Assembly (NCBI GenBank): GCA_947454235.1
Contig: CANGIY010000001.1
Location: 62,001 to 126,000 of the forward strand
Direction of reading: 5' to 3'
DNA from: Chitinophagaceae bacterium
Lineage (GTDB): Bacteria; Bacteroidota; Bacteroidia; Chitinophagales; Chitinophagaceae
DNA length: 64,000 nucleotides
The position numbers were made by a program, and so were the translations under genes. Positions 1,417 through 34,642 of the stretch are shown here, piece after piece (within the stretch, counting starts at the first letter, position 1; every line of letters begins with the position of its first letter). The notes below the pieces were generated by a model. That model saw nothing but the letters and a program-made list of their open reading frames with translations. It was not told the origin of the DNA and made no database searches.

Positions 1417-1426
1417 TAATTTAGCG

Positions 1427-3876: not shown

Positions 3877-3955
3877 TAACTAAGCAGGATATTAGTTGCT
3901 GCTAAGTTACAACAAACCATCAGTTTATACTAAGGTTAGTGATGCTGGCCATTTG

Positions 3956-4108
3956 CTAGAAACAACATACCATGTAAAAAAGAAACCCAATAATGCCGAA
4001 AAGAATTGCAAGGAGGAAGACCATACTTATTAAGGCGAGAAAAAATTCGCCAAGTTCAGACAATAGTCTTCTAACCCCAAGTCGGGGGAGTTTTTGTGGA
4101 TGTGCCAT
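3956..4108 (-). CDS. Small membrane protein, 50 residues
   Basis: A short reading frame beginning MAHPQKLPRLGVRRLL and ending FYMVCCF. A basic N-terminal part (three Arg, one Lys) is followed by one long hydrophobic helix (about residues 22-47), the layout of a single-pass inner-membrane miniprotein. It starts 14 bases after the stop of the upstream histidine kinase on the same strand, so it is probably in that transcript. No family is recognised. Its composition is not random for the region, but being so short it could still be a chance frame. Confidence 0.5.
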   Translation of the reverse strand: MAHPQKLPRLGVRRLLSELGEFFLALISMVFLLAILFGIIGFLFYMVCCF

Positions 4109-4122
4109 ATAATTCAGTTTAA

Positions 4123-4878: not shown

Positions 4879-5093
4879 TTTTTGGTTATTTGTTGAGGTG
4901 TTATTTAGTGATTCAATCTTCAATTCAAACAAACTGTACTTTTTTAGGGAGCTATTTTTGACAGTGCAAGATTATTACGATAGGCTTAACATCTTTGTAG
5001 AAATATTTCGACTGTAGCATAAGAGGGAATTCACAATCTTTGCCCCATAAATTTTTATTGTTCGGCAAAAACACATTATAGACAAAACAATAA

Positions 5094-5714
5094 ATGTTTG
5101 CACATCCACATATTATCATCGCTGATGACCACAGCATGATACGAAAGGGTATTAAGTTACTCCTCGTTACGCAATTTGGTTACAAAAACATATATGAGGT
5201 GAATAGCTGCAATGAGCTTTTCGTTGAACTGAAAAGAACACCAGCTACCCACCTCGTTCTGGACATCATTTTCGCTGATGGAACTGCGATGGAAGTAATA
5301 GCCACCTTGCGGCAGCTATACCCCGAATTGAAGATCATGATCTTCTCTATGCAATTACCCGAAGTGTATGCTGAGGTTTTCAGGAACCACAGCATACACT
5401 ACTTCCTCGAAAAGTCTACTAATGAAGACAAAACGGTGAGCTACCTCAGGAAATTTTTCAGTGACGAGCCCCCTCCTAATAGAAATCCGTTCTCGACAAC
5501 GTCGAAGAACAATCCATTCACTTTACTCTCTCCCAGGGAACTGGAAATTCTGCACTACATGCTCAACGGGCATAAAACAAATGTAATTGCTCAAAATCTG
5601 AACCTGAGTAACAGCACCGTTTCTACCATTAAACGCCGGATTTTTGAAAAAACCGATACCAATAGTGTCGCACAAGTATTAGAGCTGGCTATGCTTTACA
5701 ACATCAACTACTAA
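5094..5714 (+). CDS. LuxR/NarL-family response regulator
   Basis: 206 residues. The N-terminal receiver domain has the acidic pair D11/D12 (IIIADDHSMIRKG), the phosphorylation site D57 (HLVLDIIFADG) and the conserved lysine K107 (HYFLEKST). The C-terminal LuxR-type helix-turn-helix starts at LSPRELEILHYML and includes the recognition region NLNLSNSTVSTIKRRIFEKT. It is a DNA-binding transcription regulator switched by phosphorylation. Histidine kinases lie on both sides: one divergent, one 66 bases downstream on the same strand. The downstream kinase is the likeliest partner. Confidence 0.92.
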   Translation: MFAHPHIIIADDHSMIRKGIKLLLVTQFGYKNIYEVNSCNELFVELKRTPATHLVLDIIFADGTAMEVIATLRQLYPELKIMIFSMQLPEVYAEVFRNHSIHYFLEKSTNEDKTVSYLRKFFSDEPPPNRNPFSTTSKNNPFTLLSPRELEILHYMLNGHKTNVIAQNLNLSNSTVSTIKRRIFEKTDTNSVAQVLELAMLYNINY

Positions 5715-5780
5715 AACGAAAATCATGTAAACAACCTTGCTCAACTGATACTGAACATCAAACAAAACACACTCTCAACT

Positions 5781-6710
5781 ATGTTTTCTTATTTTAATTA
5801 CTCCCTGTTTAAGTCATGGGGGTTTATTTCTTTCGTATCAATTGTGCTGTACATAATTGCGTACAATGCTTTCAAATACCTGGTACGAAAGCTATTGAAG
5901 CGACAGAAAATTTTTAAGCTGTTGCTTCAACGAAAGACTATTGAAATTCAACGAAAAAACGAGACCCTCGAAAAAAACAATCTCATTCAAACCCGACTCA
6001 TCTCTATCATCAGTCACGATCTGATAAGCCCCTTGAAATTTATTCATATTACGGCAAAAACATTGCTGGAGCGTAATGAACACATGCCACCCGAGTTGTA
6101 CCAGGAAATGCTTACTGAAGTATCAAATTCTTCGAAAGAACTGGAACTTTTATCAACCAACATACTTAACTGGATTAAGTACCAACATGAAAACCGCCGC
6201 CTCGAAAAAGAAGAATTTGACTTACACGAAATGGTCAATCAGTTATTTTTAATCTTTCAAGGACTGGCAAGGCAGAAGAACGTCAATTTTGTGAACGAGG
6301 TACATCAGGAAGTTGTATTATATCAGTTCATGGAACCTGTGAAAATAGTACTATACAACCTTATACTCAATGCCATCAATTTTACCGAACGCGGCAATAT
6401 CACCATCACTGGTGGGCACACCCATAAAGGCATACTCGTGAAAGTGAAAGATGAAGGGCTAGGTATGTCGGAAGAACAGATTAACAATATTATGTCAGAA
6501 CATTTCATTGTTTCATCGGCAACCGTCGACAACCGAAAAGGGAATGGACTGGGCTACCTGATTATCAAAGACATGCTTAAATTCGTTGATGCCCGCTTTG
6601 TGATTAAGAGCATCAAGCACGGAGGTACTGTAGTAAGCATTTTCTTCCCGACCTTTGAAGTGAGGTCTAATCAGCTTCAACACGGCAAACTGGAAACCGC
6701 AGTACTGTAG
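5781..6710 (+). CDS. Membrane-anchored sensor histidine kinase
   Basis: 309 residues. One N-terminal hydrophobic segment (about residues 12-35, WGFISFVSIVLYIIAYNAF) is followed by a basic, coiled-coil-like stretch. A HisKA domain has its histidine in RLISIISHDLISPLKF, and the HATPase_c domain shows N box LILNAINFTE, G1 VKDEGLGM and G2 GNGLGYLIIKDML. With almost no periplasmic part, the sensing domain is either the membrane helix itself or a partner protein. It follows the LuxR-type regulator by 66 bases. Its last 44 bases overlap the 3' end of the convergent M14 peptidase gene. Confidence 0.9.
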   Translation: MFSYFNYSLFKSWGFISFVSIVLYIIAYNAFKYLVRKLLKRQKIFKLLLQRKTIEIQRKNETLEKNNLIQTRLISIISHDLISPLKFIHITAKTLLERNEHMPPELYQEMLTEVSNSSKELELLSTNILNWIKYQHENRRLEKEEFDLHEMVNQLFLIFQGLARQKNVNFVNEVHQEVVLYQFMEPVKIVLYNLILNAINFTERGNITITGGHTHKGILVKVKDEGLGMSEEQINNIMSEHFIVSSATVDNRKGNGLGYLIIKDMLKFVDARFVIKSIKHGGTVVSIFFPTFEVRSNQLQHGKLETAVL

Positions 6711-8427
6711 GTTCGAAGTATTTCGAATGCCTGTAAACAAAGTCAAGCTGAGCACCGGCGTTTTTAGCAAATGCTGAATCAGATTTTTGTTTTTCCTCCA
6801 AGGCTTTTTTGAGGGCTGGGTCATTTTGTACAATTTCAGCTGCCAAATCTTCAAAGACATAATCACCGAAATATTCCTTTTGCTGTAGGATGCCGTCAAA
6901 GAAATTCCATGCAAGAAAGCCATCAGGTGCTGCTGGTTCCAGTGTTTCAACAATGTATCTGTTGGCGGGCTGATTTACATTTATCCATACGTCACCTTTA
7001 TGAAAACCAATAGTTGCAGTTTCAGGCGTTACTTTAATATTCCTGTGCAGGTAATGTTTTTCGTAGGGCTGATTGCCTGACTCGTAGCGGTCAATATGGT
7101 ACGCTGTTACATTAAAAGTCGTGTCTCGTTCTAAAGTGTGCATTTGTATACCATTGCGTTTGAGCCTGCTTATAACACCTTTCCATGCTGCCGGCACAAT
7201 GTATGCTACCGGCGCTTTAACCGTTTCTTTCGGGTTGTAATGGTCGTAGAAAGGTACTTTACGGGTGAATGGTTTCTGATGGTCATAATACAGCCTAGGC
7301 AGCCCTGATACCAGTGAAGGTTTATAGGCCGATTCATAGCCTTTAAACTCCACCCAGTCAAATCGTGTGGTGTCTATTTGCCAGTCAATGGTGTATTGTT
7401 TTTGGTTGATGATGGCGTTGCGGTCGCCGGCACGCACCTCATGAATTTTGGTTGCATTTTGTGCGCTCAACATGATCATGCTGTTCATAATATCGTAAGT
7501 TGCCCACACCCTGTCTTTAAAGGGCTTTAGCATGTGGGTTTCGACAACGTAGCCCATTGTTTGAAACAAGGCTGCATAGCCGCTCGCAAAGCGCGGTGAT
7601 TCGAAGAATTCGCGCCAACCTTTTTCAGGGGTATTATCGAAATTGTTGACATACGGCACCATATCATACCCTTTTTTCTTCATCTCCTTATACACCATTG
7701 GGGTAAAGGTCTCGTACATGTAGCTACCACATTTGCCACCCAATTTGTCGTGCTGGGTAGGGAGCAGGGTCATTACGTGTTGGTAGTCGGCGCCATCACT
7801 CACATGGTTATCAATGAAAATATCTGGGTCAAGGCGAGTGAACTCTGCCTCAAGTGCACGGGTTTCCGATGCATCAGCCTTAATAAAATCTCTATTAAGG
7901 TCAAGATTCTGTGCGTTTCCTCTAAAGCCATAGCTTTCAGGTCCGTTTTGGTTAGCCCTCGATGTCGACGAGCGATTGAGTGCTCCACCCACATTAAAAA
8001 CAGGAATAACTGCCAAAACAACATTGCCGGGTATGGTTATTTTTCCCTGGGCAGCATCACGCAGCAGCATCATACTTGCATCAATGCCATCAGGTTCACC
8101 GGGGTGAATGCCATTATTAATGAACATAATGAGTTTGCCTTCCTTGTGCCAATTGGTGGGCGAAAAGTCGTTGGTTGGAGAATAGTAAACTACGTACAAA
8201 GGATTATTGCCATCAGCTTCACCAATTTTTTTGACTTTGATGGCTTTGCAAGACTGTTGTAGTGCCGTATAAAAATCAATGGATTCGCGGTAGGTGGCTG
8301 TTTGTCGCCCACCCGAACGCTCGAAGGGAGTGATGTAGGTAGAATCGGTATGTGCGTTCGCCTGATGGCTACCAAAAAATGAAGCACCCAAAAGGGCAGT
8401 CAAAGAAAGATTTTTAAGGAATTGCAT
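6667..8427 (-). CDS. Secreted M14-family zinc carboxypeptidase
   Basis: 586 residues from the ATG at 8427; an upstream in-frame TTG adds only three residues. A signal peptide (MQFLKNLSLTALLGASFFGSHQANA) marks export. The peptidase M14 domain supplies zinc ligands in NNGIHPGEPDG (HxxE) and a later His in FIDNHVSDGADYQH. RDFIKADASETRAL holds substrate-binding arginines, and YVVETHMLKPFKDR has the general-base-type glutamate. The long region after about residue 380 contains no recognised domain. It likely trims peptides in the periplasm or outside the cell. The coding 3' end overlaps the opposing histidine kinase gene by 44 bases. Confidence 0.88.
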   Translation of the reverse strand: MQFLKNLSLTALLGASFFGSHQANAHTDSTYITPFERSGGRQTATYRESIDFYTALQQSCKAIKVKKIGEADGNNPLYVVYYSPTNDFSPTNWHKEGKLIMFINNGIHPGEPDGIDASMMLLRDAAQGKITIPGNVVLAVIPVFNVGGALNRSSTSRANQNGPESYGFRGNAQNLDLNRDFIKADASETRALEAEFTRLDPDIFIDNHVSDGADYQHVMTLLPTQHDKLGGKCGSYMYETFTPMVYKEMKKKGYDMVPYVNNFDNTPEKGWREFFESPRFASGYAALFQTMGYVVETHMLKPFKDRVWATYDIMNSMIMLSAQNATKIHEVRAGDRNAIINQKQYTIDWQIDTTRFDWVEFKGYESAYKPSLVSGLPRLYYDHQKPFTRKVPFYDHYNPKETVKAPVAYIVPAAWKGVISRLKRNGIQMHTLERDTTFNVTAYHIDRYESGNQPYEKHYLHRNIKVTPETATIGFHKGDVWINVNQPANRYIVETLEPAAPDGFLAWNFFDGILQQKEYFGDYVFEDLAAEIVQNDPALKKALEEKQKSDSAFAKNAGAQLDFVYRHSKYFEPTVLRFPVCRVEAD

Positions 8428-15142: not shown

Positions 15143-17536
15143 ATGAAAAGGTCTATTCGTAAAGTTGCTGTTTTAGGAAGTGGTGTAATGGGGTCACGTA
15201 TCGCGTGCCATTTTGCCGGGATAGGGGTGCAAGTGCTTTTGCTTGATATTGTACCGCAAGCTCCTGCTGATGCAGGTACCGGTAAACCCGTTGATATCAA
15301 TTCAAAGCAATTCAGGAATAAGATTGCAAACGATGCTTTGGCTGCTACGCTTAAAAGTAAGCCATCTCCGGTGTATCATTCAAAAGTAGCAGGGCTTATA
15401 AAAACAGGCAACTTTACCGATGACATGCCTAAAATTGCAGACTGCGACTGGATAGTTGAAGTGGTGATTGAGCGACTGGATATTAAAAAACAAATTTTCG
15501 ATCAGGTAGAACAATACAGAAAGCCGGGTACGTTTGTTTCAACCAATACTTCCGGTATTCCTATTCATTTAATGTCGGAGGGCAGAAGTGAAGATTTTAA
15601 ACAACATTTTTGTGGCACCCACTTTTTCAATCCGCCGCGCTACCTGCGTTTATTAGAAATAATTCCTAACCCCGATACATTGCCTGCTGTAATAGATTTT
15701 ATGGTCGATTATGGTAGTCGCTTCTTGGGCAAAACAACAGTGGTGTGTAAAGACACGCCTGCATTTATTGCCAACCGCGTTGGTGTTTTTGGATTCATGG
15801 CAGTGTTCAAGGCTATGGCTTCTAATGGGCTCAATGTCGATGAAGTTGATACGCTCACCGGTCCGGTTATGGGTAGACCAAAATCAGCCACCTTCAGAAC
15901 AGGTGATGTGGTAGGGTTAGATACATTGGTGCATGTAGCAAAAGCATTGCCGCTCAATGCGCCTAACGATGAGGCAAAAGACATTTTCGTTTTACCACCG
16001 TTTTTAGAAAAAATGGTTGAAAACAAATGGTTGGGCGATAAAACAGGGCAAGGATTTTATAAGAAGGCAAAGGGCAGCAAGGATATCCAAACGCTGGATT
16101 TGGCGACTATGGAATACGTGCCGAAGCAAAAGCCAAAATTTGCGACCCTCGAAACTGCCAAACCAATTGACGACCTCGGACAACGCATAAAGGCACTTTG
16201 TAAGGGCAGTGATAAAGCGGGCGCATTTTACCGCGAATTCCACTATTTGTTGTTCTCCTATATCTCGCACCGTGTGCCTGAAATTGCCGACGAACTATAT
16301 AAGATCGACGATGCACTTAAAGCGGGCTTTGGCTGGGAAATAGGGGCTTTTGAAACATGGGATGTGCTGGGTGTCGATGATACATTAGCAGCCATGAAAA
16401 CAGGTGGCTATGCCGTAGCGCCATGGGTTGAAGCGATGCTGGCGAAAGGCTGCAAGTCGTTTTACAAAACAGAGAACGGCAAAAAGCTGTTTTATGATGC
16501 CCGTACCGGCAATTATGCATCCATTTCAGGTCTTGATTCATTCATTTTGCTGGAGCACATGGATGAAAAAGTGGTTTGGAAAAACAGTGCTTGCAAACTT
16601 TACGACATTGGCGACGATGTAGTTGCATTGCGTTGGAATACCAAGATGAATAGCATTGGTGGAGAGGTACTTGAGGGTTTGCAAAAAAGCATTGGTATAG
16701 CCGAAGATGAATACAAGGGTTTAGTGATTGCCAATGGCGGTCCTAATTTCAGTGCAGGGGCTAACGTGGGACTTATTTTCATGTTTGCTGCTGAACAGGA
16801 ATACGACGAACTGGATATGGCGATCAGGACATTCCAGAATTCGACAATGCGCATGAGGTATAGCGAAGTGCCGGTAGTAGTGGCACCTCATGGGCTCACC
16901 CTTGGTGGTGGCTGTGAGATGTGCCTGCATGCCGACGCTGTGGTAGCTGCAGCCGAGAGTTATATTGGGTTGGTGGAAGTAGGCGTTGGGCTCATTCCCG
17001 GCGGAGGAGGTACAAAGGAACTGGCTTTAAGGGCCGGCGACCGTAACATTAAGGAAGACATCGAGATGAACTACCTGCAGCAACTTTTCCTGAATATCGG
17101 TACTGCGAAAGTATCTACATCGGCGTACGAGGCATTTGAACAATTCATTTTGCGCCCAGGTTTTGATAGTATTTCAATTAACCCTGACAGAAGGATTGGT
17201 GCTGCAAAATCGAAGGTGTTACAAATGTGGGACAATGGGTACACACAACCCGCGCCACGTATGGATGTTAAGGTGCAAGGACGCCCTGGATTAGGTCCAT
17301 TGCTTTCGGGTATATACGGTATGCGCAAAGGCAACTACATAAGCGACCACGACAAACTAATCGCTGAAAAGCTGGCTTTCGTAATGTGTGGTGGTGATCT
17401 TTCTCAGCCAACCCTTGTCAGCGAGCAATACCTATTAGACCTTGAGCGTGAAGCATTCCTAAGCCTTTGTGGTGAACGCAAAACCTTGGAACGCCTGCAA
17501 AGTATACTTACTACCGGCAAGCCGTTGAGGAATTAG
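15143..17536 (+). CDS. 3-hydroxyacyl-CoA dehydrogenase / enoyl-CoA hydratase fusion
   Basis: 797 residues. The dehydrogenase comes first: an NAD-binding GSGVMGSRIA loop near residue 12, a catalytic GTHFFNPPRYLRLLEI histidine, then the C-terminal HCDH domain (PAFIANRVG, GRPKSATFRTGDVVGLDTL). A crotonase domain follows (about 490-710) with NGGPNFSAGANV and the GLTLGGGCEM and EVGVGLIPGGGGTKE oxyanion/catalytic segments. This domain order is the reverse of E. coli FadB and like that of FadN-type enzymes. It catalyses hydration and oxidation steps of fatty acid beta-oxidation. No thiolase or acyl-CoA dehydrogenase gene adjoins it here; they must lie elsewhere. Confidence 0.93.
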   Translation: MKRSIRKVAVLGSGVMGSRIACHFAGIGVQVLLLDIVPQAPADAGTGKPVDINSKQFRNKIANDALAATLKSKPSPVYHSKVAGLIKTGNFTDDMPKIADCDWIVEVVIERLDIKKQIFDQVEQYRKPGTFVSTNTSGIPIHLMSEGRSEDFKQHFCGTHFFNPPRYLRLLEIIPNPDTLPAVIDFMVDYGSRFLGKTTVVCKDTPAFIANRVGVFGFMAVFKAMASNGLNVDEVDTLTGPVMGRPKSATFRTGDVVGLDTLVHVAKALPLNAPNDEAKDIFVLPPFLEKMVENKWLGDKTGQGFYKKAKGSKDIQTLDLATMEYVPKQKPKFATLETAKPIDDLGQRIKALCKGSDKAGAFYREFHYLLFSYISHRVPEIADELYKIDDALKAGFGWEIGAFETWDVLGVDDTLAAMKTGGYAVAPWVEAMLAKGCKSFYKTENGKKLFYDARTGNYASISGLDSFILLEHMDEKVVWKNSACKLYDIGDDVVALRWNTKMNSIGGEVLEGLQKSIGIAEDEYKGLVIANGGPNFSAGANVGLIFMFAAEQEYDELDMAIRTFQNSTMRMRYSEVPVVVAPHGLTLGGGCEMCLHADAVVAAAESYIGLVEVGVGLIPGGGGTKELALRAGDRNIKEDIEMNYLQQLFLNIGTAKVSTSAYEAFEQFILRPGFDSISINPDRRIGAAKSKVLQMWDNGYTQPAPRMDVKVQGRPGLGPLLSGIYGMRKGNYISDHDKLIAEKLAFVMCGGDLSQPTLVSEQYLLDLEREAFLSLCGERKTLERLQSILTTGKPLRN

Positions 17537-24729: not shown

Positions 24730-25839
24730 ATGATTTCAATTAATGACGAACAGTTTGATTTCATACTCAATGACCTTAGCGCGCAAGGCATTGATACTGA
24801 AAGCGTAAGGATGAACCTGGCGGATCATATTTGCTGCATTCTGGAACAGGAGTGGAGCAATGACACCGACTTTAAAACCCAATACCAAGCTGTACTCAGG
24901 CGGTTTTACCGAAAACACCTGAATGAAATTGAAGAAGAAACCCACCATTTATTAACCAACAAAAACTATTATGTTATGAAGAAGTTCATGATTATCAGCG
25001 GTATAGTAGCAAGCGTGCTGCTCACGTTAGGAGTAACTTTAAAATATTTGCACTTTCCGGGTGCTGCAGTTTGTATCACCTTGGGTACAGTTATCACATC
25101 TTTGTTGTTTCTGCCATTATTTGCAACCCTGAAACTGCGCGAGCAAAGCAAGATAAAAACCAAAATATTGGTAATAATAGGCACTTTAGCCTCAATATTA
25201 TTGACACTGGCTATTCTGTTTAAGATACAACATTGGCCTGGTGCCAATGCAATGGGAGGGCTTGTATTTGTGATTGTTGCCTTTGTTTACCTGCCGCTGT
25301 ATTTCTTCAGTTATTTCCGCGACCCTGAAACACGGGTGAATACCATTATCACTTCAATCATCATCGTTTTATCGTGTGGGCTATTCATGAGCCTTACTTT
25401 AACTCCGTCAACTGAAAGATACTTGCAGGAAAGGAAAAACGCTTCTTTTCAGCTCACAGAGCAACTGGTCCAAAATGAATTGAAGTTCGCCCAAAGCAAG
25501 CAAGATGTTATTACCGACAATGCGAAACTGGTATTCAATGCTGCTGAGATACTTAAAAAGCAACTCGTGGAACTAGGCAAGGGCGGGCAATTGCTCATTG
25601 AAGATTTTCAGGCATACGATGCCATCATGAACCATAAAGCGGCAAATGAGGCATGGACAGCATTAATAAAAAATGTGTTGGCTTACAATCAGTCGGTGGG
25701 CGAAAAACCTGAATTAGTCATCCCAACCACACTCAATATATTGGCTAAAAATGAGCCACATGCCGGGTCGAAGGCATTTGAAACACTTAACGATTTGCAA
25801 CAAATACAGTTGAAGGTACTTCAGCAATCGATTAAGTAA
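24730..25839 (+). CDS. Membrane protein paired with PadR regulator
   Basis: 369 residues. The N-terminal about 70 residues (DEQFDFILNDLSAQGID, NLADHICCILEQEW) form a helical domain like the HAAS domains that accompany PadR regulators. Six hydrophobic helices follow in pairs. Two internal repeats end in related motifs, LKYLHFPGA and FKIQHWPGA; the second is the KIxHWPGA signature seen at the membrane turn of GldL-like proteins. After residue about 230 a soluble, helical, probably extracytoplasmic domain continues to the end. The gene is translationally close to padR. Function unknown; the likely role is a membrane component controlled by PadR, perhaps in envelope stress. Confidence 0.8.
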   Translation: MISINDEQFDFILNDLSAQGIDTESVRMNLADHICCILEQEWSNDTDFKTQYQAVLRRFYRKHLNEIEEETHHLLTNKNYYVMKKFMIISGIVASVLLTLGVTLKYLHFPGAAVCITLGTVITSLLFLPLFATLKLREQSKIKTKILVIIGTLASILLTLAILFKIQHWPGANAMGGLVFVIVAFVYLPLYFFSYFRDPETRVNTIITSIIIVLSCGLFMSLTLTPSTERYLQERKNASFQLTEQLVQNELKFAQSKQDVITDNAKLVFNAAEILKKQLVELGKGGQLLIEDFQAYDAIMNHKAANEAWTALIKNVLAYNQSVGEKPELVIPTTLNILAKNEPHAGSKAFETLNDLQQIQLKVLQQSIK

Positions 25840-25883: not shown

Positions 25884-26912
25884 TCAATAAATCCCCTGAA
25901 ACTGTCGGAGGAATCGAACATCGTTTTGAGAATACAACCTGAGGTCATTCACCTGATACTTGATTTGAGTGATACGCTCAACACCCATACCAAATGCAAA
26001 ACCGGTATAAATTTCAGGGTCAATGCCAAAGTTTTTAAGCATGTTAGGGTGTACCATACCGCAACCTAAAATTTCAACCCAGCCTGAGTGTTTACAAAGG
26101 TTGCAACCCTTACCGCCACATACGGTACATGAAATATCCATCTCAGCACTTGGCTCAGTGAATGGGAAGTATGAAGGCCTGAAGCGCACCTTGGTATTTT
26201 CGCCAAACATCTCGGTTACGAAATAGTATAAGGTTTGTTTAAGATCAGCGAAAGAAACATTTTTATCAATATACAAGCCTTCGCACTGGTGGAAGAAACA
26301 GTGTGCACGAGCCGAGATAGTCTCATTTCTATACACCCTGCCCGGACAAATTACCCTGATAGGCAATTCCTGGGTTTCCATTACCCTTGCTTGCGTAGAA
26401 CTGGTGTGAGTGCGCAATACCCAATCAGGGTTTTGAGCCACATAGAAAGTATCTTGCATGTCGCGCGCAGTGTGGTCGGGCGGCATATTCAGCGAAGTAA
26501 AGTTATGCCAGTCATCTTCGATTTCAGGGCCTGTAGCTACCGAAAACCCGATTTTCTCAAATATTGAAACAATCTGATTTTCCACTACCCTCAATGGGTG
26601 GCGGGTACCAATGCTGGTTGGTGTGCCCGGTAAAGAGAGGTCTATTTTATTGGCTGAAGCATCGGCACCAGCAAACTCATTTTGTAGCGCTTCATATTTC
26701 GCTTCAGCGGTTTGTTTGAAAGCATTAAGCATTTGGCCTGCTTCCTTTTTTTGGTCTACCGGCACATTTTTCATTTCACCCAAAAGCGACTTCACAAGGC
26801 CCTTAGTACCCAGGAACTTAATTCTGAAATCTTCAAGTTCAGCAGCGTTTTGCGGAACGAAAGCATTGATTTCGGCAGTTAATACCTGAATTTGTTCATT
26901 TAAGGTTGACAT
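25884..26912 (-). CDS. pheS: Phenylalanine--tRNA ligase alpha subunit
   Basis: 342 residues from the ATG at 26912. An ATG at 26970-26972 is also in frame, but it lies upstream of a consensus -7 promoter and is therefore rejected. The N-terminal coiled-coil tRNA-binding region (TLNEQIQVLTAEINAF) and the class II catalytic core are complete: GTRHPLRVVENQIVSIFEKIGF, DTFYVAQNPDWVLRTHTSSTQAR (motif 2 region), YFPFTEPSAEMDISC, the four-Cys insertion (CTVCGGKGCNLC) and the motif 3 GFAFGMGVERITQIKY. It charges tRNA-Phe together with the beta subunit PheT, which is not encoded next to it in this window. Confidence 0.95.
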   Translation of the reverse strand: MSTLNEQIQVLTAEINAFVPQNAAELEDFRIKFLGTKGLVKSLLGEMKNVPVDQKKEAGQMLNAFKQTAEAKYEALQNEFAGADASANKIDLSLPGTPTSIGTRHPLRVVENQIVSIFEKIGFSVATGPEIEDDWHNFTSLNMPPDHTARDMQDTFYVAQNPDWVLRTHTSSTQARVMETQELPIRVICPGRVYRNETISARAHCFFHQCEGLYIDKNVSFADLKQTLYYFVTEMFGENTKVRFRPSYFPFTEPSAEMDISCTVCGGKGCNLCKHSGWVEILGCGMVHPNMLKNFGIDPEIYTGFAFGMGVERITQIKYQVNDLRLYSQNDVRFLRQFQGIY

Positions 26913-26916
26913 GGCG

Positions 26917-26924
26917 CAAAGATA
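26917..26924 (-). promoter_or_regulatory. -7 element for pheS
   Basis: TATCTTTG on the minus strand, only 4 bases before the ATG at 26912. Transcription would start at or near the start codon, which decides the start choice. Confidence 0.65.
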
Positions 26925-27031
26925 AAATGATTGTTGCGATTTGTTGTGCAAATAATTAATGGAACAGAGCATTGATTTTACCGGTAGTCACAGGCAAATA
27001 AAATGCTCTATTTTAAGGCATCTACATTAAT

Positions 27032-27075
27032 TTGACATTTGTCAATCTTTAGTAATATTCTGTCACCTACTTTTG
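27032..27075 (+). promoter_or_regulatory. Promoter region of the hydroxylase/KASIII operon
   Basis: A -7 element TACTTTTG (27068-27075) lies 19 bases before the ATG at 27095. Upstream, TTGACA-TT-TGTCAA (27032-27045) is a 6-bp inverted repeat that could bind a regulator. It is short enough to arise by chance. Confidence 0.5.
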
Positions 27076-27094
27076 ACACTTATTCCAGAGATAA

Positions 27095-27820
27095 ATGATT
27101 GAACGTTTGTTCATGCAAATACCTTGGTACTATATGTATCTAATAACGGTATTGTACTTTACGATAGCATACTTTTCAGTGGCTGGTTTGGCGGTATTGT
27201 TGCTGAAAAGACTTCTTGTTGCAAAAAGCGCAAACAAGATTTCTGCAAAAGGTGCATCCCAGACACAAGTAAGACTTGAAATTAAAAGGTCGTTCATTTC
27301 AATATTGGTATTCGGCTTTTTTGGCGTTGTGCCTCAACAAGCGTACTTGCACCATTGGGTAGATATTAACTGGGCTATCAGCCCTTACATTTTGCCCTTA
27401 GAATTACTTGCGATTTTTGTGTGGAACGATGTTCATTTTTATATCTGTCACAGGCTTTTGCATGTAAAATGGCTGTTTAAACATGTTCATTACACACATC
27501 ACGAAGCGCATGTGCCTACTCCATGGTCAGCATATAGCTTCCACTGGTTCGAAGCTACTTTGCTAAGTACTGTTATGATTTCAGCGATGTTAATACATTC
27601 ATTTTGCTACGTATCCTTACTATTTCTACCAATGATAAGTCTGATATTAAATGTACTAGGGCACTGGGATTATGACTTATACCCTCAAAAGTCGCACGAT
27701 TTTTTATTCCGATTCAGCTACCGCCATTCATTACATCATCGTAGGGTAAAAGGAAATTATGGTTTCTTCCTGCCTTTTCTCGATAACATTTTCAATACAA
27801 CGCTTTCATCAAACAAATAA
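27095..27820 (+). CDS. Membrane fatty acid hydroxylase / sterol desaturase family protein
   Basis: 241 residues. About four hydrophobic helices carry the histidine boxes of the FA_hydroxylase superfamily: HFYICHRLLH (HxxxH type), FKHVHYTHHE (HxxHH type), GHWDYDL and a final HSLHHRRVKGNYG. These histidines bind a diiron centre that hydroxylates or desaturates a lipid or carotenoid chain at the membrane. It is the first gene of an operon whose next gene starts 26 bases on and encodes a KASIII/diiron oxidase fusion, so the substrate is probably the fatty chain made or used by that enzyme. Confidence 0.87.
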   Translation: MIERLFMQIPWYYMYLITVLYFTIAYFSVAGLAVLLLKRLLVAKSANKISAKGASQTQVRLEIKRSFISILVFGFFGVVPQQAYLHHWVDINWAISPYILPLELLAIFVWNDVHFYICHRLLHVKWLFKHVHYTHHEAHVPTPWSAYSFHWFEATLLSTVMISAMLIHSFCYVSLLFLPMISLILNVLGHWDYDLYPQKSHDFLFRFSYRHSLHHRRVKGNYGFFLPFLDNIFNTTLSSNK

Positions 27821-27846
27821 ACATTAACTACTAATAAAAACTTTAT

Positions 27847-29724
27847 ATGTTCAATAGAGTCTTCATTACCAGTGCAGGAAAATACTTACCAGGTGAGCCA
27901 GTCAACAACGATGATATAGAAAAACGCCTTGGATTAATTTGTAATCGCCCTTCCCGAACTCGTGTGAAAATGCTTCAACAAAATGGAATATTGACCCGTT
28001 ATTATGCCCTCGACGAAAACCAACAGCCAACCAATACTGCTAGTAACATGGCTGCCCTTGCAATTCGGGAATGCATCATGAATGCTGGTATCGACAAAAA
28101 AGATGTGGACTTGCTAGCTGCAGCAACAACACAAGGCGACTTGCCAATTCCGGGCTTTGCGAGTATGGTGCACGCCGATAGCGGCATTGATATATGTGAA
28201 ATAGTAACGTTGCACGGTGTTTGTGGCAGTTCGATGATGGCTATTAAAAACGCTTACATGCAAGTACGTGGCGAAGGGAAACAACATGCAATTGCTTGCG
28301 CAGGTGAAATGCCTAGCAGAATTTTCAAAGCTAGCCACTTTGCGCAACAGGAAAAAGTTATCGCAGATGGGGATATTATGCTGGAAACTGATTTTTTGAG
28401 GTGGATGCTTTCAGACGGGGCAGGAGCATTGTTGATGCAACCGAGGCCGCACCCTTCAAGAATTTCACTGCAAGTAGAGTGGATTGATATAAAATCGTAT
28501 GCACACCTTTTCGATGTGTGTATGTATGCAGGAACAAATAAAACACGCGATGGCAGGCTGTGTAAGAACTGGTTGGAGTATGATAATTTCAGTGATGCTG
28601 ACAAAGATGGAGCCACAAACCTGAAACAAGACATTAAACTGGTAAAAAATATTGTAAAATTGGGGGTTGACGGTTTTTTTGAACTGATGAACACAGGTAA
28701 AATCAAAGGTGACGATATCGACTACTTAGTTTGCCACTACTCTTCTCACTACTTCAAAGGTGAAATTTTAAAGCTAATGGAGCAGGGAGGGTTTGTAATA
28801 CCTGAAGATAAGTGGTTTACAAATCTTTATACTAAGGGTAACACGGGCGCTGCTTCAATATTCATTATGCTGGAAGAGCTGATGAATGAAAAAGAACTCA
28901 AGCCGGGACAAAAAATTCTCTGCATGGTGCCTGAAAGCGGTCGTTTCCTTACATCATTTATGTTGCTGACAGTAGTAGCTCCGATGAATCAAGGTAGTCA
29001 ATTCAAGTCGGAACTACGGGAGATCAAAGCCCCTCAAATTGAATTAACCAACAGTGAGACCCAGCAATGGCTCGTAAGGCAACTAACGCAAATTTGGATA
29101 GACTTTGAAAACAGACTGAACAATGTGCCAATTGTTGATAAAATAAACCGAGGAAACCTGACAGTAGAAGAATATAAAGAACTCTTGTACAACCTGCGGC
29201 AGCAGGTAATTGACGGTTCGCAATGGATTGCACGAGCGGCCTCAAATGTTAGTATTGAGTTCTTCGACGCAAGGTCATCATTTATTTCTCACGCTCGTGA
29301 CGAACACCGTGATTATCAGATTCTGGAAAGAAACTACGTTGCACTGGGAGGTACAATGGAAGAAATAAGAAGCGGGCAGAAAAATATAGGCAGTGAAGCA
29401 CTTTCATCATTCATGTTTCACAGGGCCAGCCAGCCTAATCCGTTCGATTTACTGGGAGGGATGTTTATTATTGAGGGGTTAGGTAACCGGATGGCAGGCC
29501 ATTGGGGTAGGGCTATTCAACAACAATTAAACCTCAACGACGAGCAAGTTTCTTTTCTAATATACCATGAAACAAGCGATAGCAACGATAATCACTTTGA
29601 GCGTTTCGAAAAAGCCATCCAATCGGATTTGCTCACAATTGATATTGCACGAAAAATTGCAAAAACAGCTCGAGTAACTGCGTCTTTATATTTAATGCAG
29701 CTAAGTGAAATTGGTAATTTTTAA
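27847..29724 (+). CDS. KASIII-like ketosynthase fused to heme-oxygenase-like diiron oxidase
   Basis: 625 residues in two domains. Residues about 1-380 are a beta-ketoacyl-ACP synthase III fold with a full Cys-His-Asn triad: C126 in LHGVCGSSMMA, H297 in LVCHYSSH and N332 in TKGNTGAAS. Residues about 395-620 are all-helical and match the heme-oxygenase-like/TenA-like iron-containing redox enzymes, with candidate metal ligands in SHARDEHRDYQILERN (H482, E486, H487, E494) and YHETSDSNDNHFERF (H574, D578, H583). The fused oxidase could act on the acyl product while still bound to its carrier. Heme-oxygenase-like diiron oxidases such as UndA cleave or oxidise fatty chains. The product is not predictable from sequence. 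The next gene follows after 11 bases. Confidence 0.82.
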   Translation: MFNRVFITSAGKYLPGEPVNNDDIEKRLGLICNRPSRTRVKMLQQNGILTRYYALDENQQPTNTASNMAALAIRECIMNAGIDKKDVDLLAAATTQGDLPIPGFASMVHADSGIDICEIVTLHGVCGSSMMAIKNAYMQVRGEGKQHAIACAGEMPSRIFKASHFAQQEKVIADGDIMLETDFLRWMLSDGAGALLMQPRPHPSRISLQVEWIDIKSYAHLFDVCMYAGTNKTRDGRLCKNWLEYDNFSDADKDGATNLKQDIKLVKNIVKLGVDGFFELMNTGKIKGDDIDYLVCHYSSHYFKGEILKLMEQGGFVIPEDKWFTNLYTKGNTGAASIFIMLEELMNEKELKPGQKILCMVPESGRFLTSFMLLTVVAPMNQGSQFKSELREIKAPQIELTNSETQQWLVRQLTQIWIDFENRLNNVPIVDKINRGNLTVEEYKELLYNLRQQVIDGSQWIARAASNVSIEFFDARSSFISHARDEHRDYQILERNYVALGGTMEEIRSGQKNIGSEALSSFMFHRASQPNPFDLLGGMFIIEGLGNRMAGHWGRAIQQQLNLNDEQVSFLIYHETSDSNDNHFERFEKAIQSDLLTIDIARKIAKTARVTASLYLMQLSEIGNF

Positions 29725-29735
29725 CTTTATACTCT

Positions 29736-30650
29736 ATGGCGAAGCAAAACATCATTGACCCGGTTGCATATTTTGAGCAACTGCCGCATGACCCCAATGA
29801 CCCTAATCCCTGGCAGGCACTTTTTTTCGATAAGAGTACACCGTTTGATGATACCGCAAAGGCAGCATTTCTTTTCGATCAAGGTTCGCGGTCTCGCCAA
29901 TTTATATTACCCATAGTGCGTCCATTCGCTCGGCTCTTTATCATCATCATCCAGGTAATAAAGATATTCACACCTAAGAACCTCTCATCTCCAAAGTTGC
30001 TGCACAAGCTGTTGTTCTATGCCATGAAGTACTTTATTACACCCGAGGCTAACTATCTGATATTTAGGCATTTTAACTTGGGGTCAGAAATATTGCAGGT
30101 CATTCGCGATAATATTGAAGGTGTAGATATTCCTTTAAATCCGCTAAAACCAAAACGCTTTGCCGATGTAAGAGATAATTTGTTTCTTCAACACGACCTG
30201 AATTTATTCAACTTCATTATCAGGCTGAATAAAGATTTGGGTGAAAAAAATATTGCTATTAAACCTGTTCCTTACAACCATCTTAAATTAGATTGTGTTA
30301 CCACTAATGGTTTTGAGTTTCAGAAATTCAGAAACGGGTGGACTAATGTTTTAGACCTTTCATCAGCCATTGAAATTTTCACACCTGTATATCAGTTTTT
30401 TCTGACTGACAACGATTTCTGGCGCGCTTCCAATTCACTTCAATTCGATGAAACAATAGGAATTTACCTTGCCAAAATCCTTAATACACCTGAAAATCTC
30501 TTGATTGTTAACAACAAACACCCCATGATTCCAATGACCACACTGCGTGCGGGATATAGGCTCACATTACATGGTCTGTCAACGGAAATTGCACATGGGC
30601 TACTAGTGAAAATTAAATTGAATCAATTGAAGAACTCCAGTGCTCACTAA
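29736..30650 (+). CDS. Unknown protein, third gene of KASIII/oxidase operon
   Basis: 304 residues; no family recognised. After a Pro/Asp-rich N-terminus (QLPHDPNDPNPWQAL) there is one strongly hydrophobic helix (about 62-78, PFARLFIIIIQVIKIF). Next come several helices with acidic and histidine residues: TPEANYLIFRHFNLGSEIL, NLFLQHDLNLFNFI, QFDETIGIYLAKIL. These could form a helical bundle, possibly metal-binding, attached to the membrane; this is inference. It starts 11 bases after the fusion gene and ends the operon. Its place beside two diiron enzymes suggests it helps make or handle the same lipid product. Confidence 0.75.
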   Translation: MAKQNIIDPVAYFEQLPHDPNDPNPWQALFFDKSTPFDDTAKAAFLFDQGSRSRQFILPIVRPFARLFIIIIQVIKIFTPKNLSSPKLLHKLLFYAMKYFITPEANYLIFRHFNLGSEILQVIRDNIEGVDIPLNPLKPKRFADVRDNLFLQHDLNLFNFIIRLNKDLGEKNIAIKPVPYNHLKLDCVTTNGFEFQKFRNGWTNVLDLSSAIEIFTPVYQFFLTDNDFWRASNSLQFDETIGIYLAKILNTPENLLIVNNKHPMIPMTTLRAGYRLTLHGLSTEIAHGLLVKIKLNQLKNSSAH

Positions 30651-30723
30651 TTTTAATTGTCTTTCTGGATAATAAATAAAACACTCGACAATATAGATTA
30701 TCAGTTAAGATCTGAATAATATT

Positions 30724-31202
30724 TCAACGCTCAGTGTATTTACCGATAAGGATATCACGTTCTGACAGTTCAAAATCATTGAAATCAAACCTGGGAGATA
30801 CTGTGCAACCGCAAAGAACAAAAGAATCTTGTTCTTCCACCCTGCAACCGAGCCAATTCCTGGCTTTAACGGTGATCATTAGTTTCCTCCCTAAGTCACG
30901 GCGTTTTCCCAACAATTGCCTTTTCAATAGGGCCCTCCTGGTTAATTTCACAAATGCATAAAGTTGCCCCTTCGTAGTGATGTCATGTTTCATCAGAAGC
31001 AATCCTTTGAAATGCTGAACATACTCCAGACATATGAAAGTAATATATTGATGTACAAACAGCCCGGTCACCTTTGTGATTAGATCTTAAATTAGATTTC
31101 GACAGAGTTAGTTGTGACCTGTAAATTTCTCTGTATGCCCCTCCTTCCAAATGGGCAAAAAAAGTCTAATTCCTTAATCCAGTCCTGTGTAGTGTATTTC
31201 AT
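30724..31202 (-). pseudogene. Broken cupin_5 (DUF985) family gene
   Basis: Reading the minus strand from the ATG at 31202 gives MKYTTQDWIKELDFF. A shift at a run of seven A/T (31157-31163) is then needed to continue with AHLEGGAYREIYRSQLTL and RAVCTSIYYFHMSGV, ending SDET. A TGA stop (30983-30985) replaces the expected Trp of the family's WHHYEG motif. A second frameshift near 30900-30915 leads to the C-terminal signature GCTVSPRFDFNDFELSERD. The order of blocks matches cupin_5 proteins throughout, so this was one gene and is now inactive. Three separate lesions argue against a single sequencing error. Confidence 0.85.
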
Positions 31203-31387
31203 AAATAATAAAAAAACAACTTTAAAAATACATTAGTAAACTCAAGATTCATACAAACTTAAGCTGAATGATGAAATATAGTTACCGATTTCTAACTAGG
31301 AAAGCGTTTGCCACGACTTAACAATTACGTAATAATCAGTTAATAAACAGATAACTGCCAGTTTATTTTAGTTCAGTATGACACATT

Positions 31388-31395
31388 TACTTTTG
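31388..31395 (+). promoter_or_regulatory. -7 element before the porin gene
   Basis: TACTTTTG fits TAnnTTTG, 19 bases upstream of the ATG at 31415. The 212 bases between the pseudogene start and the porin hold no other feature I can see. Confidence 0.6.
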
Positions 31396-31414
31396 TGCTC
31401 AATATTAAGAATGT

Positions 31415-32605
31415 ATGAAAAAATTGTTACTAGTAGTCTTTGCTTTTGCATCAACGAGTGTTTCGGCGCAGCATTCCGACACCGCTAAAAAATCAAATTG
31501 GTACGATAAAATTTCATTGAGGGGTTACTTGCAGGTGAGGTATAATCGACTTGCTGAAACAAACGAGAAACTGAAAAATGAACAGGGCGACAAATCATGG
31601 GGTGAAAACGGTGGTATTTTTATCAGGCGCATGAGGGTTGTTTTTTCTGGGCAACTCAGTGAGCGTGTGTACTTTTATATTCAGCCCGACTTTGCCAGCT
31701 CAGCTTCTTCTACTGCGCTCAATTTTGCACAACTGAGAGATGCGTATTTAGACTTTGGAATTGACAAGAAAAGTGAATTCAGGTTGCGTATCGGACAAAG
31801 TAAAATTCCCTACGGTTTTGAGAATATGCAATCGAGCCAAAACCGGTTACCACTCGATAGGAACGATGCATTGAACAGTGCAGTTGCAAATGAGCGCGAT
31901 TTAGCTGCGTTTTTCTATTGGGCGCCCTCTTCTGTGAGAAAACTATATAGTCACTTAGTGAGCGATGGGTTGAAGGGTTCAGGTGACTATGGTGTGTTCG
32001 GATTCGGTGTGTATAATGGGCAAACAGCCAACAAACCTGATTTGAATAATGAATTACACGTTGTTGCCAGGGCAACTTACCCTTTCCACATAGGAAAGCA
32101 AATTATTGAACCGGGTTTACAAGCCTATACAGGGCGCTTTGTGATTCCAACTGACCAGTTAACAGCAGGTGTAAAGACTACTAAAGACAGGAATTATTTA
32201 GACCAACGTGCTGCTGCAACATTTGTTTTATATCCTCAACCGTTTGGTATTCAGGCTGAATACAATATAGGTAGGGGTCCGGAATTTGACAAAAACTCTG
32301 ATTCGATTGAAACAAAGAACTTAAGCGGAGGTTATATTACTATGTGCTATCTGATGAAGATGAAGAGTCAGGTCGTGATTCCATTTTGCAGAATGCACAT
32401 GTACCAGGGAGGTAAGAAGCATGAACTAGATGCGCGTAGTTACGATGTAAAGGAGTTTGAAGCAGGTATTGAGTGGCAACCAATGAAAAACTTTGAGCTC
32501 ACGGCTATGTATACCATCAGTGAAAGAAGGTTTGAAGACTACAAGTTACAGGAGAATCCGCAAAAAGGAAACCTGTTAAGGCTTCAGGCGCAACTTAACT
32601 TTTAA
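31415..32605 (+). CDS. Phosphate-selective porin O/P-like outer membrane protein
   Basis: 396 residues. A signal peptide (MKKLLLVVFAFASTSVSAQ) is followed by alternating amphipathic strands typical of a 16-strand OprP/OprO-type barrel: SLRGYLQVRYN, FIRRMRVVFSGQLSERVYFYIQPDF, LRDAYLDFGID, RLRIGQSKIPYGFENMQSS, QAEYNIGRGPEF, and a terminal strand NLLRLQAQLNF ending in Phe. It is likely to pass anions, possibly phosphate or pyrophosphate. No phosphate transport genes are adjacent, so substrate is uncertain. A good terminator follows. Confidence 0.88.
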   Translation: MKKLLLVVFAFASTSVSAQHSDTAKKSNWYDKISLRGYLQVRYNRLAETNEKLKNEQGDKSWGENGGIFIRRMRVVFSGQLSERVYFYIQPDFASSASSTALNFAQLRDAYLDFGIDKKSEFRLRIGQSKIPYGFENMQSSQNRLPLDRNDALNSAVANERDLAAFFYWAPSSVRKLYSHLVSDGLKGSGDYGVFGFGVYNGQTANKPDLNNELHVVARATYPFHIGKQIIEPGLQAYTGRFVIPTDQLTAGVKTTKDRNYLDQRAAATFVLYPQPFGIQAEYNIGRGPEFDKNSDSIETKNLSGGYITMCYLMKMKSQVVIPFCRMHMYQGGKKHELDARSYDVKEFEAGIEWQPMKNFELTAMYTISERRFEDYKLQENPQKGNLLRLQAQLNF

Positions 32606-32707: not shown

Positions 32708-34642
32708 TTAACAGTCGCATTTAATCAAGTTGCTCTGGTAGATAGCTCCGTTTTTTCCCTGATATTTTTGTACCAGATTTTTCGTGTACAGGTTTTCAAG
32801 TATGGTTGTCGCTTCTTCCTTTGAAACATTTGCCAGAAATGAAAACTCCTTAATAGTCATAGAAGGAAACTCCTGGAATAGGCTATACGGATTGGTGTCG
32901 ATACGCTCTTTGGTAATAGTTGGAATCAAATCTTTGAGCACTTCCTCAAACTTTTCATATTGTTGGAAGCCTTTGATTACGAATTTCTTCTCAGAACAAT
33001 TGGTAAAGAACAACGTTGGGAAACCTGTAACACCTAATTCACGAGCCATACTTATGTCTTCTGAGAATTTTTCTTTGGCTTGCCCTTCAATATCTCGTTT
33101 CAACCTAGCAACATCAAGCCCGGAATAGAGTGCTGCTTTTTCCAAAAACTCCCACCGAATGATGTTTTTCTTTTCTACAAACACCATCTCCTTCATTCTG
33201 CGCAGGAACTGAATTGCTTTTTCCTGGTCTTGAAGTTGAGCGGCTTTGAATGCGATTGAAGGTGGGTATGAAGAAGACAATGGATCTTCTTTCCAAATAT
33301 CGCCGTCAAGTGGCATTTCCGATTGTTCGCAAACCTCCTCCCAATGCTTGGCTGCATCGTCGGGTGATTTAATTTTCGAACTACTATAGCCTTCCCACGA
33401 TGGTAAAAGTCCACCCATGCGGTATTCAATATTCACAAATTTGCCATATTCTAGCTGCATACGCCTCAACATGGGTTGAATGATCCAGCAGGTAGAACAT
33501 ATTGGATCGGTGAAATATAGAATGTTGATGAGCTTTTTCTCTTCGGTTTGTTCCTTTTCTCCCATATTAATCAGCGGAACCGGAATTTCTTCTGTCTGCG
33601 TTTCGGGTTTCAGGAATATTTTTTTGAGTTGGCGCCCTAGCTGAACGTGTTCAGAAACATCTTTTTTCCTTAGGTCGTAATATTTGGTGAAGGCTGTTTC
33701 CACATCTATGGTTTCATCCATGCATTTTACCAAAGTTTGTGCATCTACAATTGCATTGGTTGTTCCCGCGCTTGTGAATGGCAAAGCTAAGTGTGCTGCA
33801 TCACCTATCAATACTACATTACCCTTGTGGAAAGAAGGAAGTAAATCGAAATCGCGAGTGTGCCAAGTATATGTATTATTAAAGTCGGTTGCCTGTAAAG
33901 TGTCTTTTACAGCCTGAGGATAGTCCCTCAGCAGGTTATAACAAAATGAATAAGTTTCTTCGGCAGTACTGTTCGTAAGGTCGGCAATTGTAGGGTCAAA
34001 TTGCATGAACCAAACAAAGTCGGTAGCTGAAGTAGGGATAAGACCGAATGCAATGCCACTTTCTTTGTCCTGAAACTTTTTGAAAGTACCTTTTGGTTTT
34101 TTGGCCGTTGCCTTGCGGCTGCAAACTCCAATGATTTCTTTTACTTCAACCGGAGTGTACTTTGTTCTGCCAAACAAGTATTCACGCACGAGCGAGTTAC
34201 CACCATCGGCACCTATGAATACATCGCCATATTCTACATCACCATTAAGAAAAACAGCAGCTATTACTTTACCTTCTTCATATACGAAATGCGAGAAATT
34301 GCGTTGGTCTTTAATTTTTTCGGCAGGCATCAGTGCGTACAGAAAACCTATTAAGCTCTTCCGTTTTACGCAGTACCAGCCATCAAGTTTCAGGTGTTTC
34401 ACCCTTTCTCCTTCCGGGGTATGCATCATGTATTCGTCAATCATTTGGGCTTTCAAAGAGATGTCTACACCTTTTTTTAGCTCGTTTAATGACTCAACGC
34501 CATCAGAGTGCATAAGGAAAGCGTGACCTTTGTTGGGTAATCCATTGGCGCGTTCACAAATAACGATATCATAGTTTCTTTGGTGGAGCATTATGCCCAT
34601 AGCAAGCCCGGCTACGCCACCTCCAATAATCACTACTTTCAT
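32708..34642 (-). CDS. Fusion: FAD monooxygenase, DsbA-like thioredoxin fold, winged helix
   Basis: 644 residues with three parts. Residues 1 to about 345 are a PHBH-type FAD-dependent monooxygenase: dinucleotide loop IIGGGVAGLA (5-14), a middle FIGADGGNS (DG motif) and the GNVVLIGDAAHLALPFTSAG FAD-ribityl motif (D281). Residues about 370-575 are a DsbA/FrnE-like thioredoxin fold with the CxxC pair C382-S-T-C385 in FTDPICSTCW and the cis-proline TGFPTLFF. Residues about 580-644 look like a small winged helix (TIKEFSFLANVSKEEATTILENL) ending KCDC. The gene overlaps the end of a PLP aminotransferase gene by ATGA. Joining a flavin hydroxylase to a disulfide-type domain is unusual. A role in oxidising or detoxifying a sulfur-containing or aromatic compound is only a guess. 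Confidence 0.82.
   Translation of the reverse strand: MKVVIIGGGVAGLAMGIMLHQRNYDIVICERANGLPNKGHAFLMHSDGVESLNELKKGVDISLKAQMIDEYMMHTPEGERVKHLKLDGWYCVKRKSLIGFLYALMPAEKIKDQRNFSHFVYEEGKVIAAVFLNGDVEYGDVFIGADGGNSLVREYLFGRTKYTPVEVKEIIGVCSRKATAKKPKGTFKKFQDKESGIAFGLIPTSATDFVWFMQFDPTIADLTNSTAEETYSFCYNLLRDYPQAVKDTLQATDFNNTYTWHTRDFDLLPSFHKGNVVLIGDAAHLALPFTSAGTTNAIVDAQTLVKCMDETIDVETAFTKYYDLRKKDVSEHVQLGRQLKKIFLKPETQTEEIPVPLINMGEKEQTEEKKLINILYFTDPICSTCWIIQPMLRRMQLEYGKFVNIEYRMGGLLPSWEGYSSSKIKSPDDAAKHWEEVCEQSEMPLDGDIWKEDPLSSSYPPSIAFKAAQLQDQEKAIQFLRRMKEMVFVEKKNIIRWEFLEKAALYSGLDVARLKRDIEGQAKEKFSEDISMARELGVTGFPTLFFTNCSEKKFVIKGFQQYEKFEEVLKDLIPTITKERIDTNPYSLFQEFPSMTIKEFSFLANVSKEEATTILENLYTKNLVQKYQGKNGAIYQSNLIKCDC

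Follow-up and report, generated by a model that had tools for sequence, protein, structure and literature searches.

Introduction

DarB-type ketosynthases join a beta-ketoacyl thioester to an unsaturated acyl thioester (PMC4578411), and in the classical cluster DarB is listed as the cyclase and DarA as the aromatase (Azoarcus gene table, PMC3949708). Of the heme-oxygenase-like dimetal oxidases (HDOs), about a dozen have known reactions, mainly on fatty or amino acids, and their ligand sets are named as three histidines with three carboxylates (3H/3C), 3H/4C and a mononuclear form (PMC13108848, section 4); the words 'fused', 'fusion' and 'ketosynthase' do not occur in that review. The present work concerns a locus in a 64,000-nucleotide stretch of a Chitinophagaceae bacterium (GCA_947454235.1, contig CANGIY010000001.1, positions 62,001 to 126,000; hereafter the window), in which gene B encodes a ketosynthase of DarB/StlD likeness fused to an HDO-fold domain, and gene C, directly downstream, encodes a protein of the family DUF6999. 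The window belongs to contig C1 of a genome of 4.17 Mb, in which it occurs once.

The genes of the locus are as follows (coordinates of the window):

27095-27820, + strand: gene A, 241 aa, membrane protein of the PF04116 fatty acid hydroxylase superfamily
27847-29724, + strand: gene B, 625 aa, ketosynthase-HDO fusion
27847..28977, + strand: ketosynthase half of gene B (residues 1-377), nearest to the DarB/StlD type
28996..29721, + strand: oxidase half of gene B (residues 384-625), HDO-fold domain according to model, Foldseek and alignments
29736-30650, + strand: gene C, 304 aa, DUF6999 (PF22523)

An earlier note on this DNA had described the three genes as an operon with gaps of 26 bases (A-B) and 11 bases (B-C), and the coordinates in the list of open reading frames agree with these spacings. 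We show here that gene B is a real gene fusion, and that the conserved unit is the fusion together with DUF6999 and not the three-gene operon of the window; a hydroxylase gene stands directly upstream in 18 of 34 full-length loci. The function that we tentatively favour, at just under an even chance, is a two-chain condensation followed by an HDO oxidation in place of DarA.

Results and discussion

Distribution and origin of the fusion

A scan of contigs for gene B returned 36 loci, 33 of them carrying full-length fusions, and 34 sequences were aligned with the window included; the others were a fusion with a broken frame (L031) and two standalone ketosynthases (L035 and L036). Additional fusions were reached through DUF6999, so that the ketosynthase tree contains 43 fused rows, belonging to Bacteroidota, Cyanobacteriota (seven) and Fidelibacterota (one). 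L031, whose frame is broken in the ketosynthase, was excluded from the fused alignment, the tree and the residue counts, and L068, which comes from the same genome as L028, from the tree and the counts. Recurrence in three phyla is more than would be expected by chance. An assembly joint, which the earlier note had named as a possible refutation, is rejected because the fusion is present in many genomes, and in the 43 unbroken copies the two domains are contiguous.

The nearest relative of gene B in the scan, with 79% identity, is found in a metagenome-assembled genome (MAG) of Flavipsychrobacter. In a sample of 147 genomes of the window's family, the full fusion was found only in the window's genome, and it is therefore rare and patchy; a DarB-type ketosynthase (E <= 2.2e-48) ending before the HDO part was found in 47 genomes of the same sample, nine of which, those with a locus (L039-L047), were used in the tree and in the DarA test described below.

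On plasmid pTHAF3_a of Pseudoalteromonas sp. THAF3, ketosynthase, HDO and DUF6999 are encoded by three separate genes in the same order, with identities to the window of 46%, 43% and 28%, respectively. This split operon argues that the parts are functionally linked.

In the ketosynthase tree, the fusion of Flavobacterium tegetincola (L021:7995-9863) is nested in the Pedobacter group, which suggests horizontal transfer. Interrupted genes, through either sequencing error or decay, were seen at two loci, i.e. the broken fusion frame of L031 (a Taibaiella MAG) and, in L034 (Chitinophaga pinensis YS-16), a DUF6999 gene in two pieces.

DUF6999, the partner of the fusion

Gene C is a full-length member of DUF6999 (PF22523; E 6.4e-117, 389.9 bits against a cut-off of 27), a family to which Pfam gives no function and on which no paper was found in the open-licence literature searched. 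DUF6999 lies directly 3' of the fusion, intact, in 32 of the 34 full-length loci; in L034 it is the gene in two pieces, and in L003 a thiolase gene stands in its place. A census of three phylum samples gave DUF6999 in 5 of 395 Bacteroidota (all above the cut-off, one of them weak), in 8 of 292 cyanobacteria (7 above the cut-off) and in 1 of 149 genomes of the Fidelibacterota sample. Of the 13 matches above the cut-off, 12 adjoin a ketosynthase-HDO fusion (L065 by coordinates), although three of these 12 are the sample-centre genomes known beforehand (the window's genome, Microcoleus and the Fidelibacterota MAG), without which the count is 9/10; G813, with a match under the cut-off, was left out of this neighbourhood count. 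DUF6999 is thus a near-constant partner of the fusion. It should be noted that a match above the cut-off was also obtained in a control genome, that of Caulobacter vibrioides.

The thirteenth match (G359, locus L073) is a DUF6999-like gene that overlaps with the 5' end of a gene for a DarB-like ketosynthase, and no HDO was seen there. This DUF6999-like gene was not found by profile A2. The features of L073 are:

3320-5201, minus strand: diverged DUF6999-like gene and ketosynthase gene
1404-2972, minus strand: gene for an FMO-like flavin monooxygenase, following the above

The FMO-like gene after the DarB-like ketosynthase suggests that a different oxidase may take the place of the HDO here.

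Among nine divergent DUF6999 members (the weak L073 included), the invariant residues include R111, H112, H153, D154, D238, N260, P263, H279 and E284, a pattern that would suit a metal enzyme, and residues 54-79 are hydrophobic enough to contact a membrane. The structural model (predicted local distance difference test score, pLDDT, 83.2) gave no significant match in the PDB (best E 0.74) or among viral structures (best E 0.11), and a sequence search returned no credible solved relative (best E 0.07). The order H...HD...D resembles that of HD-domain metalloenzymes; the fold search did not support a relationship, and none is claimed here.

The ketosynthase half of gene B

Residues 1-377 match the StlD/DarB-type model NF005293 with E 1.5e-123 and 412.6 bits, and the solved stilbene ketosynthase StlD (5gk0) with E 2e-81; by sequence, therefore, the nearest enzymes are the two-chain DarB/StlD ketosynthases. 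The earlier note had called this half a ketosynthase III with an intact Cys-His-Asn triad. The triad stands, since C126-H297-N332 is present in 43/43 fused rows and in 12/12 DarB/StlD rows, whereas a FabH-type KASIII identity is rejected, because FabH models score far below StlD/DarB. E363 and S364 are likewise common to all of these rows, and the ketosynthase half of gene B shares 36-45% identity with standalone DarB-type proteins.

The fused ketosynthases also differ from DarB/StlD. Besides the fusion to an HDO domain, the lack of DarA at the locus and scores below the NCBIfam cut-offs, two positions are changed: position 104 is Phe in all 43 fused rows but His in 11 of the 12 DarB/StlD rows, and position 296, which adjoins the catalytic H297, is Cys in 41 of 43 but Pro in 12 of 12. 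The His104/Pro296 pair as a criterion derives from near-invariance in the 12 compared DarB/StlD rows and is not a published one. The same Phe and Cys are found in the split Pseudoalteromonas ketosynthase.

In the ketosynthase tree, a branch of length 0.81 (support 100/100) leads to the DarB/StlD rows, and the fusions of Bacteroidota and Fidelibacterota are grouped at 99/94. In the best tree, the seven cyanobacterial fusions fall beside DarB/StlD (90/83), but a single clade for all fusions was not rejected by the approximately unbiased (AU) test (p 0.117), from which L073 was excluded.

Search for DarA

The queries were the genes adjoining DarB in L035 and L036, which from their position we take to be DarA; in a family search they gave only a weak flavodoxin match (E 6.9e-6), and another gene nearby in L035 was identified as DarH. 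All 11 standalone DarB loci gave a match to the presumed DarA (two had supplied the queries, and the match in L044, at the end of the locus, is partial), and none of the fused loci did, among 76 loci searched with flanks that reach at most about 8 kb and are shorter at several of them. Genome-wide, at E 0.001, no match was found in six of the nine fusion genomes searched, the window's included, while all four control genomes, which belong to the window's family, were positive. With the L035 query, the window's genome gave no match even at E 1 (run without a control), nor did this genome show a standalone DarB match.

These results bear on the idea that the unit is no more than a version of the known DarAB/flexirubin dialkylresorcinol pathway. 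The ketosynthase superfamily is the same, DarA occurs in three of the nine fusion genomes searched, and several hosts are Chitinophaga, a genus in which Chitinophaga pinensis makes flexirubin (PMC3992019). The DarB/StlD rows, however, are set apart from the fused rows by their long branch, no DarA match was obtained at any fused locus, and the window's genome matched neither a standalone DarB nor DarA; moreover, no HDO is named in the available part of the Azoarcus dar gene list, which does contain hypothetical proteins (PMC3949708). We consider this explanation very improbable.

The HDO-fold half and its metal site

The AlphaFold2 model of residues 384-625 (34 sequences, pLDDT 87.8) was submitted to Foldseek, which returned 3dde as the best match (E 6.1e-7, template modelling score 0.77-0.80) together with CtCADD, followed by TenA, UndA and heme oxygenases. 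A profile of this half matched 3dde with E 1.9e-4 when built from 34 close relatives and with E 1.7e-7 when built from seven diverse members. In Pfam, no family matched residues 384-625 of the window protein, and the oxidase half of a cyanobacterial homologue scored just below the cut-off of PF14518, Haem_oxygenas_2 (E 2.6e-6, 27.8 bits against 28.9). The model thus indicates that residues 384-625 adopt the HDO fold, in agreement with the earlier note, which had proposed a fusion to an HDO/TenA-like domain.

Conserved carboxylates and histidines, for which the earlier note had proposed a check in this half, are indeed present, although the set is not the standard one. H482, E486, E543, H574, D578 and H583 are invariant in 44/44 rows (the 43 fused rows and the split Pseudoalteromonas protein), D489 is found in 43/44 and H487 in 42/44. 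D489 aligns with the His of the ExxH motif in MAFFT, hhalign and profile alignments to 3dde, and against 3dde plus three standalone HDOs; an earlier profile of close relatives only had the register off by one, placing Y490 there, a residue that is likewise not His. The predicted metal ligands are E486, D489 (in place of His), E543, H574, D578 and H583, so that five of the six positions of the standard 3-His/3-carboxylate set are kept and the sixth is Asp. The ligand set would be 2H/4C, or 3H/4C if H482 were bound; to judge from helix spacing only, this residue might face the metal site from the same helix. Compared with other members of the superfamily (UndA, CADD, SznF and the unassigned 3dde), the domain keeps the helical fold, the Glu of ExxH, the central Glu and the His-Asp-His run, and differs in the Asp, in its tether to a ketosynthase and in two extra residues between D578 and H583, which are seen in the consensus of the 34 fused rows but not in L026, L028 and L053.

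The changed ligand makes it conceivable that the HDO-like domain has lost its oxidase activity and serves in binding, as a scaffold or as a chaperone, while DUF6999 does the chemistry. DUF6999 has its own invariant His/Asp/Glu set, and L073 keeps a DUF6999-like gene with a ketosynthase where no HDO was seen. Nevertheless, a pure scaffold would have no need of E486, E543, H574, D578 and H583 in 44/44 rows and of D489 in 43/44, and in L053 the HDO domain is a separate protein. On balance, loss of activity appears improbable.

Another explanation, somewhat better placed but still unlikely, is that no ring is formed: the ketosynthase would make a linear beta-keto acid or beta-diketone, which the HDO would cleave or decarboxylate in the manner of UndA to an alkene, a ketone or a shortened acid, to be hydroxylated by gene A. 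The decarboxylase UndA, which acts on fatty acids, ranks in the top ten Foldseek matches, the replacement of the DarB/StlD His and Pro by F104 and C296 would fit, and fatty and amino acids are the main substrates of the characterized HDOs (PMC13108848, section 4). The relationships of the ketosynthase point the other way, however, as it is far nearer to StlD (E 2e-81) than to 3row and 3s20 (E 0.17), which we take to be OleA structures. An OleA/PpyS-type identity is disfavoured by this score and by spacing, since the glutamate of those enzymes would land on P102, a position judged from spacing alone and not from an alignment with them, and E118, the sole Glu of the window protein in the stretch 90-125, is also present in StlD.

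A distant standalone HDO was observed on plasmids of Vibrio, Salinivibrio and Pantoea (L074, L075 and L076, around 2820-7100), in a conserved run of genes for a 'thermostable hemolysin' (according to its annotation), an AMP-binding protein, the HDO, a short-chain dehydrogenase/reductase (SDR) oxidoreductase and a tetratricopeptide repeat (TPR) protein. This looks like another uncharacterized HDO pathway.

Gene A and the upstream slot

The membrane hydroxylase assigned to gene A by the earlier note is confirmed by Pfam (PF04116 FA_hydroxylase, E 3.3e-21, 76.5 bits against a cut-off of 31) and by three histidine clusters, HFYICH, HVHYTHH and HSLHH, at residues 114-119, 130-136 and 211-215. In these features gene A resembles the rest of its superfamily, and it is peculiar in being exchangeable at the fusion loci. 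The 18 loci with a gene A homologue immediately 5' of the fusion include L020, where it is a 97-residue piece. In L003 the upstream gene, 157 bases from the fusion, encodes a PF00487 protein, which we read as AlkB-like; in L026 it encodes a P450 at 14 bases, and a UDP-glycosyltransferase gene lies 5-111 bases upstream in L014 (searched) and in the members of its cluster, L019, L027 and L034. In the remaining ten of the 34 loci, inspection by eye revealed no such tailoring gene on the same strand up to 400 bases away; in one of them, L018, the upstream gene reads like ribosomal protein S1. Gene A is therefore an exchangeable gene outside the conserved unit, with a probable tailoring role: the hydroxylase, the PF00487 protein, the P450 and the glycosyltransferase are all expected to alter a chain or attach a sugar.

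Proposed pathway

The preferred reading, condensation of two chains followed by oxidation by the HDO domain, is based on the proximity of the ketosynthase to StlD/DarB, on the HDO fold, on the lack of DarA matches at the fused loci and on the position of 12 of the 13 DUF6999 matches beside a fusion. It retains, as the best interpretation of the sequence, the earlier suggestion that condensation and oxidation take place on the same polypeptide. We infer every chemical step in what follows. The ketosynthase would load one fatty thioester onto C126 and condense it with a second thioester, probably a beta-ketoacyl one as in DarB, and the product would be handed on to the tethered HDO domain. There, O2 would be activated at the predicted two-metal site (E486, D489, E543, H574, D578 and H583, perhaps with H482) for the oxidative step of the aromatase DarA, either desaturation and aromatization or hydroxylation of the ring or of the beta-dicarbonyl. 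DUF6999, perhaps a metal-dependent enzyme, may act on the same intermediate, and an alkyl chain would then be modified by whichever enzyme the exchangeable upstream slot encodes, in the window the membrane fatty acid hydroxylase. The outcome would be a resorcinol-like or other oxidized two-chain lipid, formed without DarA.

A more specific version can be formulated, although we rate it as rather unlikely in this full form: the dimetal HDO, with its Asp-for-His ligand change, would work together with the ketosynthase to which it is joined and would replace DarA as an aromatase or ring oxygenase that depends on O2, DUF6999 would be a further metal enzyme, and together they would make an undescribed two-chain lipid in scattered Bacteroidota, in cyanobacteria and, as separate proteins, in marine Pseudoalteromonas.

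Several points weigh against the preferred two-chain reading. The ketosynthase scores below the NCBIfam cut-offs (NF005293, 412.6 against 450; NF053539, 374.6 against 550), and because the DarB/StlD residues His104 and Pro296 are changed to Phe and Cys, a cyclohexanedione, such as the 2,5-dialkylcyclohexane-1,3-dione of the DarAB pathway, may not form at all. Likewise, with Asp in place of the canonical HDO His, O2 activation is not assured. In the three fusion genomes that do have DarA, it lies elsewhere, on another contig, and the DarA query was possibly too distant for the cyanobacterium and the Fidelibacterota genome, as the controls all came from the window's family. The L003 locus has no DUF6999, and the search of its genome, a MAG of uncertain completeness, gave no match either. 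At L073 the resemblance to DUF6999 is weak, with 32.2 bits across an internal stop and 24.7 bits, below the cut-off, for the open part. Finally, genes A-C encode neither a carrier protein nor a redox partner.

Promoter and genomic surroundings

Upstream of gene A lies a divergent gene for a PheS-like phenylalanyl-tRNA synthetase, and the next gene downstream of gene C encodes a Porin_O_P protein. A pattern scan gave one candidate promoter for the three genes:

27068..27075, + strand: -7 motif (TACTTTTG, pattern TAnnTTTG), candidate operon promoter

We take TAnnTTTG to be a Bacteroidota-type promoter element. On the + strand of 26001-31500, it occurs at 27068, before gene A, and at 31388, before the porin gene, and nowhere else; no TTG is found 17-22 bases ahead of either. 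The earlier claim that the genes stand behind one promoter is thus weakly supported, by the single -7 motif before gene A but not by an upstream TTG. As for signs of a mobile island, the two features examined showed none: the GC content of genes A-C (38-42%) is near that of the whole window (42%), and the window contains no tRNA gene.

About 10 kb upstream of the locus, a gene at 15143-17536 (+ strand) encodes a fatty acid beta-oxidation protein (3HCDH and enoyl-CoA hydratase), which could be a source of beta-ketoacyl or enoyl thioesters for gene B. Elsewhere in the window, a 644-residue protein (32708-34642, - strand) combines an FAD_binding_3 monooxygenase-like domain, a Thioredoxin_5/DsbA domain and a MarR-like tail, the latter weak and below the cut-off (E 0.036), and a membrane protein with two GldL_N-like stretches (24730-25839, + strand) is encoded immediately after a gene for a PadR-type regulator.

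Conclusions

The unit of fusion and DUF6999 probably makes a fatty-acid-derived compound that has not yet been described. In keeping with the earlier note, which knew of no product for this arrangement, none was found assigned to the fusion in the titles and opening lines of abstracts of the open-licence literature searched, outside which most subscription journals lie, so that one may have been missed. Since the unit is present in named strains of Pedobacter, Chitinophaga and Niastella that are in culture, the question of the product is directly testable. For DUF6999, a family without a function, the association provides a firm and testable context. As for the HDO family, a member with a changed metal site is here tied to an enzyme that forms C-C bonds; such a partner would reveal the substrate and would widen the range of the fold.

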